Source of the DNA: an uncultured Bacteroidota bacterium
GTDB lineage: Bacteria > Bacteroidota > Bacteroidia > Chitinophagales > Chitinophagaceae
Assembly (NCBI GenBank): GCA_903906365.1
Contig: CAIVKC010000060.1
Location: 1 to 64,000, forward strand
DNA length: 64,000 nt
Direction of reading: 5' to 3'
A model generated the notes under the pieces. The model worked only from the letters and a program-made list of their open reading frames with translations, did no database searches and was not told where the DNA came from. Positions within the stretch are counted from its first letter, which is position 1. Every line of letters starts with the position of its first letter. Shown here one piece after another: positions 39,090 to 46,267 of this stretch. The position numbers and the translations under genes were made by a program.

Positions 39090-40016
39090 ATGCGTGTGAT
39101 GGAAGACACTTACCGCAAACAAATGGGACTGGGCCAGGATGGCAACGCGCTGGTCAAGCTGCTGGTAATCAATTTGATACTATTTGTGGTGCTTAAATTT
39201 GTCTACGTCATTTTCCTGACCACCCCCCTGGACCTGAACGCATATTACAGGAATATATTCAGCTGGTTTGTGCTCCCTGCCGACCTCAACCGGCTGTCGG
39301 GGCGTCCCTGGACCCTATTGACTTTTATGTTCGTTGACTCCGAGCTGTCGCGCTTCCTCGCCAATATGGTCTGGCTTTATGGATTCGGCTATATCATGCA
39401 GGATATGACGGGCAACAGCAAGATTGTTCCGGTATATATTTATGGCGGGCTCTGCGGCGCCTGCCTGTATGTACTGGCCTATTACCTGTTCCCTAAGCTG
39501 CAGGTTCAGATTCCCTATGCCACCCTGGCCGGAGCCAGTTCCTCGGTAGTGGCCGTGGCGATTGCCACCACCACCGTAGCCCCTGATTACCGGATCTTTC
39601 CGATGATCAACGGCGGCATCCCCCTGTGGATACTAACCATCATATTTGTGTTATTGAATTTTTACAGCATCCATTACGGCGATGCGGGCATGTATTTTGC
39701 CAATATTGCCGGTGCGGGACTGGGTTTTACGTTCATCTACCAGATGAAAAGGGGCAGGGACTGGAGCCTTTGGATGAACCGGTTTTTTGACTGGTGCAAT
39801 GACCTGTTCGACCCCCGTAAAAACAAACCCGCCCGGTCCCCCAAAGACGAGTTTTATTACAAGGTATCCGGCACCCAGCCCTATAAGAAGATACCCAACA
39901 TCACCCAGAAACGCATCGATGACATCCTGGATAAGATCAACCAGCAGGGTTACCGATTTCTCACCGATGAAGAAAAAGAGATTCTGAAACGCGCTGCGGA
40001 CAAAGAAGATTTGTAA
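39090..40016 (+). CDS. Rhomboid-like protein lacking the catalytic His (probable pseudoprotease)
   Basis: 308 residues with the rhomboid membrane layout (FLANMVWLYGFGYIMQDMTG, IYGGLCGACLYVLAYYLF, TLAGASSSVVAVAIATTTVA). The GxSx motif is present as GASSS, but HxxxN reads RFLANM and the segment that should carry the catalytic His reads YFANIAGAGLGF. So two key His positions are replaced and proteolysis is unlikely. A cytoplasmic C-terminal tail of about 75 residues (from about 230, ending in QRIDDILDKINQQGYRFLTD-type helices) is shared with Bacteroidota rhomboid relatives. Follows the active paralogue; an iRhom-like partner role is inference. Confidence 0.85.
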   Translation: MRVMEDTYRKQMGLGQDGNALVKLLVINLILFVVLKFVYVIFLTTPLDLNAYYRNIFSWFVLPADLNRLSGRPWTLLTFMFVDSELSRFLANMVWLYGFGYIMQDMTGNSKIVPVYIYGGLCGACLYVLAYYLFPKLQVQIPYATLAGASSSVVAVAIATTTVAPDYRIFPMINGGIPLWILTIIFVLLNFYSIHYGDAGMYFANIAGAGLGFTFIYQMKRGRDWSLWMNRFFDWCNDLFDPRKNKPARSPKDEFYYKVSGTQPYKKIPNITQKRIDDILDKINQQGYRFLTDEEKEILKRAADKEDL

Positions 40017-40029
40017 CTTCCCTTCATTC

Positions 40030-41172
40030 ATGGCAATGCTCCGAACATTTACCAGGCGGGTGGTCATCGCCTCCCATATCGCCGTGGTGATCCTTTTCCT
40101 GCTGGCCTGTGCCAATGGCTGGCTGCGTCCCGACCATTGGTGGGTGGTATCCCTGCTGGGCCTTTTTTTTCCGGCCCTGCTGGCGGCCGTGATTTTCTTT
40201 CTTGTGTTCTGGCTGCTGTACCGACGCCGCTGGGCACTGCTTTCCCTGGCAGCCCTTCTGGCCGGCTGGCAGAATATCCATGCCTTCCTTGCCTTTCACC
40301 CCGGGGCCGCCTTCCAGGCTTCCAAGCCGCCCCATAGCCTGCGGGTACTGACCTGGAATGTCCGCAGGTGGGATGAATTTTCCGGCAAAAAAAAGGACAA
40401 CGGACTGCACCGCAGCAAAATGATGCAGGTGATCGCCGAACAAAACGCCGATGTCCTGTGCTTCCAGGAATTCTTCGAGTCCCATAACCCGAAGGAATAT
40501 GCGCGCAATATCCCCTACATCCAGGAGCAGTTGCATTATCCCTATTATTATTTCTCCCAGGATTACCACCGCTATGACTGGATGTATGAAACCGGCGTCA
40601 TCATTTTCTCAAAATACCCGATCACGGGGACCCTGCGCGTCAAATACAGCGGCACCGACAGTGTCCGGGCCACCGAAAGCCTGATTGCCGCTGACATCAA
40701 TGTCTCCGGTCAGCGGGTGCGCGTATTCACCACCCACCTGCAGTCCGTGCTTTTTCACAGCAGGGATTTCCGCAATATTGAGATCATCCGCAATGTGGAT
40801 GACAGTGTGCTGCAGGCCTCCCGGTCGATTGTAAAAAAACTGCGCCGCGCCTATGGCTTCCGCAGTGCCCAGGCCGACCTGGTCCGCAGCCAGCTTGACC
40901 AGAGCCCCTACCCGGTGGTGATCTGCGGGGATTTCAATGATATTCCCAACTCCTATACCTACTTTCACATCCGCTCCGGGCGGCAGGATGCCTTCCTTGC
41001 CAGGGGTTTTGGCATCGGAAGGACCTATAAGGACCTTTCGCCCACCCTTCGGATTGACTATATCCTGGCTGATCCCTCCCTGGAGGTACTGCAGTGCAGG
41101 CGGCTGGTCACCCCCTTTTCCGACCACCATCCGGTGATAGCGGACCTCCGGCTTGGGGAGCAGGGACAGTAA
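40030..41172 (+). CDS. Membrane-anchored endonuclease/exonuclease/phosphatase family protein
   Basis: 380 residues. Three N-terminal hydrophobic segments (residues about 10-100) lead into an EEP catalytic domain. Its motifs are LRVLTWNVRRWDEF (Asn of motif I), VLCFQEFFE (metal-binding Glu), TGVIIFSKYPI, TTHLQSV, ICGDFNDIPNS (Asp/Asn), RIDYILADPS and the closing SDHHPVIADL with Asp and catalytic His. All metal and catalytic residues are present. Substrate could be DNA, phosphoinositide-like lipid or another phosphodiester. Starts 14 bases after the rhomboid-like gene. Confidence 0.9.
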   Translation: MAMLRTFTRRVVIASHIAVVILFLLACANGWLRPDHWWVVSLLGLFFPALLAAVIFFLVFWLLYRRRWALLSLAALLAGWQNIHAFLAFHPGAAFQASKPPHSLRVLTWNVRRWDEFSGKKKDNGLHRSKMMQVIAEQNADVLCFQEFFESHNPKEYARNIPYIQEQLHYPYYYFSQDYHRYDWMYETGVIIFSKYPITGTLRVKYSGTDSVRATESLIAADINVSGQRVRVFTTHLQSVLFHSRDFRNIEIIRNVDDSVLQASRSIVKKLRRAYGFRSAQADLVRSQLDQSPYPVVICGDFNDIPNSYTYFHIRSGRQDAFLARGFGIGRTYKDLSPTLRIDYILADPSLEVLQCRRLVTPFSDHHPVIADLRLGEQGQ

Positions 41173-41180
41173 TTTTTAAC

Positions 41181-41188
41181 TATCTTTG
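41181..41188 (+). promoter_or_regulatory. -7 promoter element of the cysS transcript
   Basis: TATCTTTG, an exact TAnnTTTG match; transcription is predicted to start at about 41193, the first base of the leader peptide. No clear -33 element. Confidence 0.6.
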
Positions 41189-41192
41189 AGCC

Positions 41193-41243
41193 ATGAAATC
41201 CTTCCGCTATTTTTGTCTTTACAGTTGTTGCCGGTCCATATAG
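41193..41243 (+). CDS. Cysteine-rich leader peptide of cysS
   Basis: A 16-codon frame encodes MKSFRYFCLYSCCRSI and stops at TAG (41241-41243). Three of 16 codons are Cys (residues 8, 12 and 13, with an adjacent Cys-Cys pair), far above the usual 1 percent. It lies between the promoter and the gene for cysteinyl-tRNA synthetase, and its last codons enter the 5' arm of a terminator-like hairpin. This matches the design of amino-acid-sensing leader peptides such as those of trp and his operons: a ribosome short of Cys-tRNA would stall at these codons and alter the hairpin. The role is inferred; the peptide itself likely has no function. It is not an extension of cysS, which is in another frame from 41297/41336. 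Confidence 0.75.
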   Translation: MKSFRYFCLYSCCRSI

Positions 41244-41263
41244 GCGCTGAACGCCTATTTTTG
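41240..41263 (+). terminator. Attenuator-type hairpin in the cysS leader
   Basis: Stem ATAGGCG/CGCCTAT (41240-41246 with 41252-41258), loop ctgaa, followed by TTTTG. It sits inside the cysS leader, not after a gene, and its 5' arm contains the leader peptide stop codon. A near-copy of the 3' arm and T-tract occurs in the peptide region (41205-41217), which could compete for the 5' arm. Confidence 0.75.
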
Positions 41264-41335
41264 TCCCGGGTAAATCCCGGAGCATTTGTAAGCGGCATGA
41301 CCATATCAAAGATTCCATTACCACAAAACCATTCC

Positions 41336-42826
41336 ATGACTTCCTTAAAAGTCCATAATTCATATACCCGTCAAAAAGAGTTGTTTACCCCCATCACCCC
41401 CGGACATGTGGGGATGTATGTGTGCGGCCCTACCGTTTCGGGGGAAAGCCATTTGGGTCATGCCAGGCCCTTTATCACCTTCGATGTGATCTACCGCTAC
41501 CTGCGCTATAAGGGCTATAAAGTGAGGTATGTCAGAAATATTACCGATGCCGGCCATTTTGAAGAAGAGGGGCGCCAGGCCGAGGACAAGATCTCCAAAA
41601 AGGCGGTCATCGAAAAACTGGAGCCCATGGAGCTGGTGCAGAAATACACCAACCTGTTTCACTGGGCCATGAATAGATTCAACAACCTGGAGCCCAGCAT
41701 AGAACCGACGGCCACCGGTCATATCGTGGAACAGATCGATATGATTGAAAAGATCCTTTCAGCCGGCTATGGCTATGTGGTCAACGGATCGGTCTATTTT
41801 GATGTGAAAAAATATGCCGCCGCCTATCCCTATGGCAAACTGAGCGGCCGAAAGATTGAGGACCTGCTGGAGACCACCCGGGACCTGGACGGCCAGGATG
41901 AGAAGATCAATAAGCAGGATTTCGCGTTGTGGAAGGCGGCACCGCCCGAACATATCATGCGGTGGAACAGCCCCTGGGGAGAGGGATTTCCCGGATGGCA
42001 TATCGAATGCTCTGCCATGAGCACCAAGTACCTGGGGGAGCAGTTTGATATCCATGGCGGGGGAATGGACCTGATGTTTCCCCACCACGAAAGTGAGATT
42101 GCCCAGAGCACCATCTGCAACCATCATACCCCTGCCAGGTACTGGCTGCACAACAACATGATTACCGTCAACGGCAAGAAAATGGGAAAGAGCTATGGCA
42201 ACCAGATCATGCTGACCCAGATGTTCAGCGGGGAGCACCCCCTGCTTAGCCAGGCCTTTTCCCCCATGACCATTCGTTTTTTCATCCTGCAGACCCATTA
42301 CCGCAGTACCCTTGATTTTGGCAATGAGGCCCTGCAGGCAGCCGAAAAGGGGCTAAAAAGGCTTTGGGATGCCTATGGGGAACTCCGGCAGCTGGATTTT
42401 GATCCTTCAAAAAACAGGAACCTGGAACTGGAAAACACCTTTTATACCGCATGCCGTGAACTGGACGAAAGCATGGACGATGATTTCAATACCGCCAAAG
42501 TGCTGGCAGGCCTGTTCACCCTGGTCAACCACATCAATTCCCTGAAAAGCGGTGTCCTGGAAAGGGATACGATGTCGGCGGAATGCTATGCCTTTGTGAA
42601 AAAGCAGTTCTCCGCCTACCTGGAAGATATCCTGGGCCTGCAGGATGAACATGCCGCCGAAAGGGGCAGACTCAACCAGGTACTGGACCTGCTTATCGAG
42701 ATCCGCCGGGAAGCCAAGGCAAAAAAAGATTATGCAACCTCGGATAAAATACGAAATCAGTTACAGCGTTTAGGCATTCTGATGAAGGATGAGAAAAACG
42801 GCCAGGTGAGCTATAGTTTTGAATGA
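41336..42826 (+). CDS. cysS: Cysteinyl-tRNA synthetase
   Basis: 496 residues from the ATG at 41336; an in-frame ATG at 41297 would add 13 residues and is less likely. Class I synthetase: HIGH box [15 protein letters not shown] box [11 protein letters not shown], zinc ligands Cys (MYVCGPTV), Cys (WHIECSAMS) and His/Glu ([11 protein letters not shown]). The C-terminal helical anticodon-binding domain ends in [20 protein letters not shown]. Charges tRNA-Cys in the cytoplasm. Its 145-base leader carries a Cys-codon leader peptide and a terminator-like hairpin, suggesting control by cysteine supply. Confidence 0.97.
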
Positions 42827-42940
42827 GTCGGCAGGAGCAGGGGGCCGGCCGGGGGTGTTTTTTAGTGGCCGGGCAAACAACCCCGATGCCTGTTTGGCCG
42901 TAAAAGGACGGTACGGGTTCACATTTATTAATCAAGAGCT

Positions 42941-43957
42941 ATGCGCATGACCTCTTTGCACAAAACAAATACCTTACGCCATATCGGTTTACTGCTGGCC
43001 CTGTTATGGACCTCCTGCACCAAAACCACCAATACGATCCCGGTTGTTACCACCGCCAGTTCCATTGCGGCCATCGTCAAAAATGCCACCAACCTCACCC
43101 TGTTTGACAGCGCCCTTTCCAAAACCGGCCTGATAAAGACCCTCGACAGCGCGGGCCCCACTTCACCCTATACCCTGTTTGCCCCCCCGGATGCGGCTTT
43201 TGCCGCTTCAGGGATTACCGGTTTTACCATATACGGGGATTCGGTGCCTTATCTGACCCGGCTGGTTCGTTACCACCTCATTGCGGGGGAGACCTATACG
43301 GCAGCCAAAATAGCCTCCCTGCTGGCCGGACCCAACGCGCCCTATGCCGCCGCCAGCATCAACCCCTATACCGGCAGTTCCGACACCCTGTATTTTACGG
43401 TAAATGCCAGCGGGATATTCATCAACGGCAGCCTGATCACCCAGGCCGATGTAACCGGTAATAACGGGGTAATCCATGCCATCAGCAACGTGCTGGTACC
43501 GCCTTCGGCCAGTATCTACCAGACCCTGGCCACCGATTCCACCCTGGGTGCCGATTCCACGCTGACCTACCTGGTGGCTGCCATCCGGCAGGCCTCCAAA
43601 TCCACCCGGCTGGACTCGCTGCTCTCCGGCACTTCGGTCTTTACCCTGTTTGCCCCCACCAATTCGGCTTTCCGGCTGCCACCCTTCAATTTCACCTCCG
43701 CTGATACCATTGCTACCATCGCGCCGGATCAGCTGGCCATGCTGCTGCAGGCCCATATCGTGGCAGGAAGAAAATTCTCATCCGACTTCTACGGGCAGCT
43801 GCCCACCCTGCTAGCGGGAGATTCCATCCGCTTTTCCCCGACCTATGGCAATGTCCTGGTACAAAAAGGGGATACCACTTTTTCCACCGTCACGGGCTTT
43901 AATGTCATGGCCACCAACGGGGTGATCCATAAAATCAGCCAGGTCCTGCTTCCCTAA
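42941..43957 (+). CDS. Fasciclin-domain lipoprotein 1
   Basis: 338 residues; lipoprotein signal with lipobox LLWTSC (start 42941 or 42947). Two fasciclin (FAS1) domains, about 45-190 and 195-337. The FAS1 landmarks are YTLFAPPDAAFAASGI and YHLIAGETYTA with NGVIHAISNVLVPP in the first, and FTLFAPTNSAFRLPPF with NGVIHKISQVLLP in the second. Surface adhesion or polysaccharide-matrix binding is the family's usual role. First of three tandem paralogues; its first domain has longer loops (TGSSDTLYFTVNASG) than those of the others. Confidence 0.92.
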   Translation: MRMTSLHKTNTLRHIGLLLALLWTSCTKTTNTIPVVTTASSIAAIVKNATNLTLFDSALSKTGLIKTLDSAGPTSPYTLFAPPDAAFAASGITGFTIYGDSVPYLTRLVRYHLIAGETYTAAKIASLLAGPNAPYAAASINPYTGSSDTLYFTVNASGIFINGSLITQADVTGNNGVIHAISNVLVPPSASIYQTLATDSTLGADSTLTYLVAAIRQASKSTRLDSLLSGTSVFTLFAPTNSAFRLPPFNFTSADTIATIAPDQLAMLLQAHIVAGRKFSSDFYGQLPTLLAGDSIRFSPTYGNVLVQKGDTTFSTVTGFNVMATNGVIHKISQVLLP

Positions 43958-44129
43958 AGCGCCCCGGGGACGCCGGACTCCCGGTCCCTGGGCAAGGGGA
44001 CCCCGCTTCCCGATGATTCAGTCCGCAAAAACTACGTTTCATCCCTGCTAATGCCTTTTTGGGTAGGATGGCGGGGACAAGCTTCCTGATAGATTGTTGA
44101 TAGATCCATCACCAAAAACACAAACTATC

Positions 44130-45086
44130 ATGAAAAAGCTTTTCATCCTTTCTCCGATGAAGGCATGCTGCATTGCCATGCTGGCCCTGCTGGGCCTGAC
44201 CGGTTGCGAAAAATCAAATCACCACCGGGGTCCCCTCACCATTTACCAGACCATTGCCAATGACCAGCAGCTGGAATTTTTGACTGTAGCCATCAACAAA
44301 GCCGGGTTGAAGGAAACCCTCAATGGGGATGACAAAACCCAGTTTACGGTATTTGCCCCCACCAATGAAGCCTTCCAGGCTGCCGGCTTCAAGACTGTCC
44401 AGGATGTGGCCAATGCCCCGGCCGCTAGCCTGAAATCCATCCTGCTCTATCACGTGCTGAGCGGCAAAGTGGAAGCAGGTGACATTCCCCTGGCCTCCAA
44501 TACCCCCGTTAACACGGTAGCCGGAACCCCGATCTACGTCACCCGCACTAATGCAGGCAGCGTATTTATAAACGGGGTCAGCGTAATCCAGGCCAATATA
44601 GAATGTACCAACGGGGTAATCCACAAAATCAACCGCGTGCTGATTCCAGCCGTGGGTAATATTGTCCAGACCGCCCAGGGCAATGCCAACCTGAGCCTGC
44701 TGGTGGCAGCCGTGCTCCGTGCCAGCCAGGGCAGCACCAATGTCGCAGCTGTTCTCTCCGGCGCAGGTCCCTTTACCGTCTTTGCGCCGACCAACCAGGC
44801 CTTTATCAATGCCGGTTTTGCCGATGCTAATGCCATCAACGCGGCTGACCCCAATGTACTTACCTCCATACTGACCTACCATGTGATCGCGGGCAGGATA
44901 TTCTCTTCTGATTTAGCGGATGGCATCATGCCGGCCACCGTAAACGGAGAAACCGTTACCATCACCCTGGGCAGCGGGCCGCAGGTGAAAGGTAAGGGCA
45001 ATACCACCGCTTCCAATATCATTGCAACCGATATCGTGACTACCAACGGGGTAGTACACGTCATTGACCAGGTGCTTCTTCCCTAA
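44130..45086 (+). CDS. Fasciclin-domain lipoprotein 2
   Basis: 318 residues from the ATG at 44130, chosen because it opens the lipoprotein signal (MKKLFILSPMKACCIAMLAL, lipobox LTGC). Two FAS1 domains: FTVFAPTNEAFQAAGFKTVQ with NGVIHKINRVLIPAVGNIVQ, and FTVFAPTNQAFINAGFADAN with TNGVVHVIDQVLLP. Its second domain is very like that of fasciclin protein 3 (both have SILTYHV ... GRxFSSDL and ATxxNGVVHVIDQVLLP), showing recent duplication. Ends at a strong terminator, 45133-45165. Confidence 0.93.
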   Translation: MKKLFILSPMKACCIAMLALLGLTGCEKSNHHRGPLTIYQTIANDQQLEFLTVAINKAGLKETLNGDDKTQFTVFAPTNEAFQAAGFKTVQDVANAPAASLKSILLYHVLSGKVEAGDIPLASNTPVNTVAGTPIYVTRTNAGSVFINGVSVIQANIECTNGVIHKINRVLIPAVGNIVQTAQGNANLSLLVAAVLRASQGSTNVAAVLSGAGPFTVFAPTNQAFINAGFADANAINAADPNVLTSILTYHVIAGRIFSSDLADGIMPATVNGETVTITLGSGPQVKGKGNTTASNIIATDIVTTNGVVHVIDQVLLP

Positions 45087-45132
45087 CCGGGGCAGGGGCC
45101 CATCCGGATCCCTCTGTGTTACACTCTTTGTG

Positions 45133-45165
45133 AAAAACCGTCCGCCATTGCGGGCGGTTTTTTTT
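45133..45165 (+). terminator. Intrinsic terminator after fasciclin protein 2
   Basis: Stem AAAAACCGTCCGC paired with GCGGGCGGTTTTT (one T-G pair), loop catt, and a run of eight T. Strong rho-independent form. Confidence 0.88.
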
Positions 45166-45316
45166 GTGCGCGAGGCCCCCAGGGAGGGAATCATTCACAC
45201 CGGGATAGGTCAATTCACACCCTGAAAGCAACAACTGGCTACCTGCCGACGGGGGAAACCGTCCCGTCGTTGTTATCTATGCCAAACCTGATTATTCAAC
45301 CTTAACAATCTAATGT

Positions 45317-46267
45317 ATGCGCAATTCATTCTCTGAAAAAACCCTGCGAGCAGCTGCCCTGCTGCTGTTTTCCGGTTTTATTTTCACGGCCTGCAAGAAA
45401 AGCAGCACGCCTGCCACGCCAGCGGCCTCAACCATTACCAGCATTGTTTCCACCAATGGCAGCTTTACCCTGCTTAAATCAGCCGTTGTGAAGGCCGGGC
45501 TGGATGTAACCCTGTCGGGAACAGGCCCTTTTACGGTTTTTGCACCCAGTGACACCGCTTTTGCCGGTTCAGGCATTACCTCCTCGGTGATAGCTTCGCT
45601 GACCGCCGACCAACTGAAGGCGATCCTGCTTTACCACACCCTGGCCTCCAAGGTGACCGCATCCGAAGTGCCGGCCGGCCCCAATGCCAAAGTGGTAACC
45701 GCCAGCGGGGATTCTGTATTTGTGACAAAAAATGCCAACGGGGTATTTGTCAATGGCATACCGGTGACCCAGGCCGATATCATGGCCAGTAACGGAGTGA
45801 TCCATGCCATCGCACGGGTGTTGCTGCCCCCGGTAGGTAACCTGGTTGCCGTGGCACAGTCGGACACCAGCTTCTCCTACCTGGTAGCGGCCGTACTGCG
45901 CGCCAGCCAGGGGACAACCCCGGTGGCTACGGTCCTTTCCACCGGCGGTCCGTTTACCGTCTTTGCTCCGACCAATAACGCCTTCCGGGCAGCGGGATTC
46001 GCCACGGTGGACGCCATCAATGCGGCAGATCCCAATACCCTGGCTTCCATCCTGACCTATCATGTGGTGCCGGGACGCGTATTTTCCTCAGACCTGAGCG
46101 AAGGAGCCCAGCCAGCCACCGTGAACGGGGGTAAGCTGACCATTTCACTCATGGGTGGAGCCAGTGTTAAGGGAAACTCTAACACCACCTCCTCCCACAT
46201 CATCGCCACCAATATCATGGCCACCAATGGCGTCGTTCATGTCATTGACCAGGTATTGCTTCCCTAA
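45317..46267 (+). CDS. Fasciclin-domain lipoprotein 3
   Basis: 316 residues with lipoprotein signal (AALLLFSGFIFTACKK, lipobox FTAC). Two FAS1 domains: FTVFAPSDTAFAGSGITSSV with NGVIHAIARVLLPPVGNLVA, and FTVFAPTNNAFRAAGFATVD with TNGVVHVIDQVLLP. Closest relative in the window is fasciclin protein 2. It precedes the LytS gene by 90 bases; that gap holds a 13-bp inverted repeat. Confidence 0.93.
   Translation: MRNSFSEKTLRAAALLLFSGFIFTACKKSSTPATPAASTITSIVSTNGSFTLLKSAVVKAGLDVTLSGTGPFTVFAPSDTAFAGSGITSSVIASLTADQLKAILLYHTLASKVTASEVPAGPNAKVVTASGDSVFVTKNANGVFVNGIPVTQADIMASNGVIHAIARVLLPPVGNLVAVAQSDTSFSYLVAAVLRASQGTTPVATVLSTGGPFTVFAPTNNAFRAAGFATVDAINAADPNTLASILTYHVVPGRVFSSDLSEGAQPATVNGGKLTISLMGGASVKGNSNTTSSHIIATNIMATNGVVHVIDQVLLP

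Follow-up and report, generated by a model that had tools for sequence, protein, structure and literature searches.

The gene for cysteine--tRNA ligase (cysS) in the window, i.e. in the whole 64-kb stretch of DNA analysed, is preceded by a small open reading frame (ORF) rich in cysteine codons. We estimate at about two in three (0.66) the probability that this ORF, at positions 41193-41243, is a working sensor of cysteine. ORFs of the same plan recur upstream of cysS in the Chitinophagaceae, and similar poly-Cys leaders were found before two further types of cysteine gene.

Re-reading of the sequence confirmed that the promoter box, the Cys-rich ORF, the hairpin and cysS are all present at the places claimed in the initial annotation; the elements of the leader region and cysS described below are all on the forward strand. 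The leader ORF (MKSFRYFCLYSCCRSI, 16 codons, ATG at 41193, stop codon TAG at 41241-41243) begins 4 nt past an exact TAnnTTTG match, TATCTTTG (41181-41188), the -7 box of a putative promoter, P1, with an expected transcription start site at about 41193. Cysteine is encoded by codon 8 (TGT, 41214-41216) and by the tandem codons 12 and 13 (TGT, 41226-41228; TGC, 41229-41231), the expected site of ribosome stalling. The hairpin, ATAGGCG (41240-41246)-ctgaa-CGCCTAT (41252-41258), is terminator-like in the window copy, and folding of hairpin plus tail (41240-41263) gave -8.6 kcal/mol. It had been described as following the ORF, but its 5' arm, which begins 8 nt past the tandem Cys codons, actually starts in the last codon and includes the stop. 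The T-run attributed to it is also present, as four T residues (five with the last stem base) followed by G 41263; the same letters, however, form part of another exact TAnnTTTG box, TATTTTTG (41256-41263), which probably serves as the -7 element of a further promoter, P2, closer to cysS. The window copy contains a second hairpin, CCGGG-taaat-CCCGG (41266-41280; -11.2 kcal/mol on folding of 41263-41290). The product of cysS (41336-42826, 496 aa) scored 436.8 bits with TIGR00435 (cut-off 340; E 1.1e-130). The only Rfam families detected in the window at gathering score were two tRNAs.

Excerpts of a study of Flavobacterium psychrophilum (PMC9723704) place the TAnnTTTG box at -12 to -5. With this spacing, +1 would coincide with the first base of the leader start codon (41193), so the mRNA made from P1 is predicted to be leaderless, its start codon probably lying at or beside +1. 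Short ORFs (7-40 aa) located 3-7 nt past an exact TAnnTTTG box number three on the forward strand of the 64-kb window and none on the reverse, and the cysS leader is the only one of the three that encodes CC.

The occurrence of such leaders was analysed in cysS loci of the window's genus (30 loci; 31 of 33 genomes had a match), of a named set (80 loci), of the family (244 genomes, 242 with a match, of which 125 were sampled from the matches listed, in near order of similarity, leaving 100 unique loci after removal of copies) and of the phylum (118 genomes). Upstream DNA of 263 unique loci was examined; the group outside the family (the 'class' group, n=24) consists of loci of the same order and class together with three phylum loci (L162-L164). 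Under a strict rule (ATG or GTG start, 7-40 aa, at most 300 nt upstream, CC and at least three Cys), leaders were called on the forward strand in 6/30 genus, 32/69 named, 38/100 family, 1/24 outside-family and 2/40 phylum loci, the corresponding reverse-strand numbers being 0, 2, 2, 0 and 2. A loose rule (two Cys plus a box) added one genus, two named and two family loci. Genus, named and family sets together thus contained a Cys-rich small ORF upstream of cysS in 76 of 199 loci, versus four on the reverse strand, and the proposed Cys-codon leader peptide of cysS is a recurrent feature of the family. Application of a similar rule to the first 99 unique loci resulted in 37 forward and 1 reverse calls, as compared with a mean of 1.15 (maximum 3) in 40 shuffles. 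The two strict calls of the phylum set look like chance, since they have no box and are equalled in number on the reverse strand. They (L270 and L304) were excluded together with L065, L183 and L209, rows that had no box, were too long or did not resemble a leader; L217 was dropped because an internal ATG seemed a better start, and 78 of the 84 called leaders were kept for leader statistics.

Mapping of the leader label onto a tree of 97 CysS proteins required 20 changes, against a mean of 30.5 for shuffled labels, and none of 500 shuffles gave so low a value. A second family of the class carries cysS leaders of a type different from that of the Chitinophagaceae, with ...TTIICC near the end, in 4 of 30 loci (the rule gave 6/30, of which L450 and L474 were set aside as chance by eye). 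L159, L465, L468 and L471, from this second family, have related leaders (M[IT][KR]F[KR]K...TTIICC). A gapless pattern, TGYTGYTGYTGYTRA, matched 143 of 147 genomes and its backward control fewer, but 24 of 30 inspected matches had no ATG or boxed start; the pattern was discarded, CTG/GCT repeats of coding DNA being the likely cause.

The 78 leaders are 11-25 aa long (e.g. MKTFSQYCCCCCC, MILRLPSCCCC and MNNFLSYNRCCCCCPLLTA), and some of them end in CCCCCC-stop. Their Cys codons comprise 207 TGT and 131 TGC, with both kinds present in 66 of the 74 leaders that have at least three Cys, and in 37/78 the last Cys immediately precedes the stop codon. Judging from these sequences, there is little doubt that the Cys codons are under selection, and translation of the leaders is indicated by their codon usage, by where they start and by how they are distributed. 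A loose -7 box was found 4-7 nt upstream of the start codon in 72/78, a figure inflated by the choice of start, in which a box, searched for at 3-8 nt only, gave a bonus.

The region between leader and cysS also shows recurrent features. Of the 78 loci, 49 carry the motif TAnnTT[TC]G in the stretch from the leader stop to cysS, and 29 lack it. Among the 95 NNnnTT[TC]G words found there, 50 begin with TA, the next commonest pair occurring 7 times, which indicates a promoter signature rather than a U-tract. The base following the box is C in 35 of the 49 cases, and in 31 of them the distance from box to cysS is 46-65 nt. Leader-free relatives have a box within 250 nt in 111 of 122 cases (55 at 15-31 nt from cysS, 20 closer).

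A hairpin at the leader end is common to the cysS leaders: its mean z was -1.05 (s.e. 0.13) against own shuffles and -0.76 with the downstream arm alone shuffled, as compared with 0.05 in a control window 5' of the leader ATG and -0.39 (s.e. 0.14) in a window from +6 to +60 past the leader end, values that overstate certainty because related loci are not independent. None of 200 arm permutations was equally stable. Relative to the leader end, the median hairpin extends from -11 to +8, often with Cys codons in the 5' arm and the stop in the loop. Folded as a whole, the leaders were not more stable than shuffled sequences (mean z -0.11; first set, n=38, including L055, whose ORF was wrongly chosen), and the search for an alternative (antiterminator) fold of the cysS leaders yielded the leader-end hairpin alone. 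Base pairing between the spacer and the leader's first 16 nt was rejected as a general feature, being weak on average (n=78, mean z -0.39, s.e. 0.13), with strong pairing in some loci only, e.g. L249, L219 and L108. The spacers of leader loci contain more C than G (0.208 and 0.133; 0.170 and 0.159, respectively, in leader-free 5' regions), a composition that is suggestive only as a hint of Rho.

A sequence-only profile of 53 cysS leaders, searched in 117 family genomes, identified 30 best-match loci: 19 of cysS (11 in the profile and 8 outside it, as judged by comparing places), one of cysH (L344), two of a cysteine synthase (L357 and L358, of which one belongs to the window's genus) and 8 not recognised. 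Examination of the corresponding genes, with these seed loci included in the counts (L344 = L404, L357 = L365, L358 = L396), revealed a leader with 4-7 Cys in all 28 cysteine synthase loci with upstream sequence (20 from the genus, 8 from the family), the longest run comprising up to seven Cys codons (L381). The set excludes distant relatives (approximately 35% identity), and three further loci (L385, L386, L403) have no upstream sequence. Since the enzyme scored below the NCBIfam cut-offs for cysK, cysM and cysKM (279.8 bits versus 344.15 for cysKM), it can be placed in the wider family only, whereas cysS and cysH pass their cut-offs. In the window's genome, the best match to this cysteine synthase has 30% identity, i.e. 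a close relative is lacking.

Each of the 28 cysteine synthase leaders (L365-L384, L395-L402) is associated with a terminator, a stem of 6 or more pairs followed by at least T4, mostly of the form AGCTCCAC..GTGG[AG]GCT-T4 or more. Many of the leaders contain GGTGGAG or GGGTGG, which could base-pair with the AGCTCCAC arm of the terminator. This pairing is strong, although 262 of 2000 arm permutations were equally good, the arms varying too little for covariation to show; pairing with the own arm was better in L402, L374, L396 and L397 and worse in L381. In the genus, the cysS leader was observed in 7/10 genomes without the leadered cysteine synthase and in 0/20 with it, an exclusion that corresponds to only three independent tree pairs and may be plain inheritance. 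Outside the genus the respective values were 18/45 and 1/6, a difference that is not significant.

Poly-Cys leaders also precede cysH in 22 of 30 loci, versus one on the reverse strand (L404-L433; the 30 most similar of 76 genomes with a match). The cysH of the window's genome (L422) has the leader MHFIIILSRPLPIHSNDCCC, 57 nt upstream of the first in-frame cysH ATG (72 nt if the start is extrapolated), whose leaderless status is not obvious. Comparison of ten leader loci with Rfam gave a single match, a SAM riboswitch (RF00162, 89 bits, L344:1679-1795, + strand), which lies beside the poly-Cys cysH leader of that locus on the opposite strand. The presence of Cys-rich tiny ORFs before several cysteine genes suggests that cysteine is probably sensed via ribosome reading speed.

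The cysteine synthase leaders of the genus resemble leader-peptide attenuators of the trp/his type: they combine Cys codons with a terminator and with a segment that could base-pair with its arm. The cysS leaders share with the class of ribosome-mediated attenuators a leader ORF coding for the amino acid of the downstream gene, but differ in that they mostly lack a terminator; in the cysH leaders none was obvious by eye.

The initial annotation had interpreted the cysS region as a transcription attenuator, in which the hairpin at 41240-41258 and its T-run act as an intrinsic terminator disrupted by a ribosome stalled at 41226-41231. The distance between Cys codons and hairpin fits this geometry, the window copy passes our terminator rule, a terminator design is seen at cysteine synthase within the genus, and all 28 cysteine synthase leaders conform to that rule. 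Among the cysS leaders, however, a terminator-like hairpin directly before at least T4 was found in only 2/78 (L215 and the window copy), where 12 rounds of shuffling gave 1.5 on average; the sister locus L002 fails the rule, and the T-run is short and belongs to the recurrent promoter-like box. Terminator-like matches in the region 40000-43000 of the window (6, where shuffles averaged 3.7 with sd 2.2) were within chance. A conserved intrinsic terminator was thus not borne out, and we regard this form of control as unlikely for the window's copy. It would be one form of a working sensor, and our estimates for the sensor, for its terminator version and for the relic discussed below overlap. The rarity of the terminator, the promoter signature of the box and the shared leader-end hairpin together favour a ribosome-gated, non-intrinsic step, and the output in most relatives is probably other than intrinsic termination; Rho-dependent termination and control of cysS translation are both candidates.

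It is also conceivable, though rather doubtful, that the ORF is a relic of a working ancestral poly-Cys leader, partly lost in this genome, and that cysS is driven by P2 or by a promoter at 41208. The distribution of leaders among relatives is patchy, as reflected by the 20 changes on the tree, and the expectation of the initial annotation that homologous leaders retain the ORF and its Cys codons was borne out in only part of the genus (7/30 loci, six strict and one loose), the leader being absent from the other 23. The window's leader is also a weak one, with three Cys in 16 codons, fewer than in most of the 78, and a search of its own genome with profile R1 (E up to 2) did not recover it. 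On the other hand, the exact box, the 4-nt gap, the ATG, the tandem Cys codons near the end and the stop are all intact, and the sister locus L002 (tree support 80) has kept the same plan, with a box, a 4-nt gap, a GTG start and S-C-C near the peptide end. A chance ORF appears very improbable. It would imply that the cysS promoter consists of TTTG (41185-41188) and the copy of TATTTTTG within the leader ORF (41208-41215), so that the leader start codon is never transcribed. The two elements are 19 nt apart, and pairs of TTTG and box at the searched spacing of 17-21 nt occur five times in the window versus 1.07 expected; the box at 41208 has such a TTTG, whereas the leader box at 41181 does not. 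Nevertheless, an ORF with CC located 3-7 nt past an exact box arose in only one of 20,000 dinucleotide shuffles of 41141-41336, and the same plan is found in 77 other loci.

According to the favoured sensor model, the leader would be transcribed from P1 with the ATG as the start site, and the first ribosome would load straight onto the 5' end of the transcript. Under shortage of Cys-tRNA, the ribosome is expected to stall on the Cys codons near the leader end and, by covering this end, to block the hairpin there, so that more cysS, and consequently more of the enzyme that charges tRNA-Cys, would be made from the same transcript. With ample Cys-tRNA the ribosome would complete the leader and depart, allowing the hairpin to fold. 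P2 (box 41256-41263) would probably yield a leader-free, basal cysS mRNA.

As far as excerpts of the respective sources indicate, this kind of system is already known, from the cysS uORF of Rhodobacterales and the leaderless poly-Cys ORFs of mycobacteria. The former, uORFC-8-2, has tandem Cys codons near position 14-15 and a stem that holds the Cys codons, and ribosome-mediated control by Cys-tRNA was proposed for it (excerpts of PMC8632094). The tandem Cys codons before cysS, here codons 12-13, are a shared feature. The same excerpts describe a U-run terminator at the 3' end in all cases, in contrast to the 2/78 cysS leaders (the window's among the two) in our set, which also belongs to another phylum, has ORFs predicted to be leaderless and often contains 4-6 Cys. 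The mycobacterial small ORFs (Canestrari et al. 2020, as described in citing papers) are leaderless and have contiguous Cys codons, and the genes downstream are cysteine-responsive. By description, our leaders are similar in being Cys-rich and placed before cysteine genes, and 72/78 are predicted from the box position to be leaderless; they differ in phylum and promoter type. For Bacteroidota, the top matches listed in the literature searched included no report of a Cys-rich leader before any of the genes cysS, cysteine synthase and cysH. In the excerpts of the F. psychrophilum study, leader-peptide attenuation is suggested upstream of amino-acid biosynthesis operons, with cysS unnamed, and leaderless mRNAs amount to 5.5% (PMC9723704). 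Excerpts on B. thetaiotaomicron mention small ORFs within long 5' UTRs and give approximately 3.7% of 5' UTRs as shorter than 10 nt.

We tentatively propose, as a possibility somewhat short of an even chance, that Chitinophagaceae and part of the second family of the class possess a poly-Cys-leader cysteine regulon whose output takes two forms. At cysteine synthase it would be a terminator of the textbook kind; at cysS it would be leaderless and terminator-free (terminator-free also at cysH), a ribosome at the last leader codons gating a hairpin that Cys codons and stop region form together, and another promoter would act as bypass. If this is correct, Bacteroidota would be added to the groups in which the speed of ribosomes on poly-Cys codons serves to sense cysteine, and would supply a collection of leaders, ready for use, whose Cys runs reach seven codons (as in L381). 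The two outputs of one sensor, with a terminator (cysteine synthase) and without one (cysS), could be compared within a single genus, and leaderless mRNAs, which are rare in Bacteroidota, would have a clear role. As a minor observation, three tandem ORFs downstream of cysS (42941-46267 of the window) share a repeated ending like VIHVIDQVLLP and appear fasciclin-like by eye.
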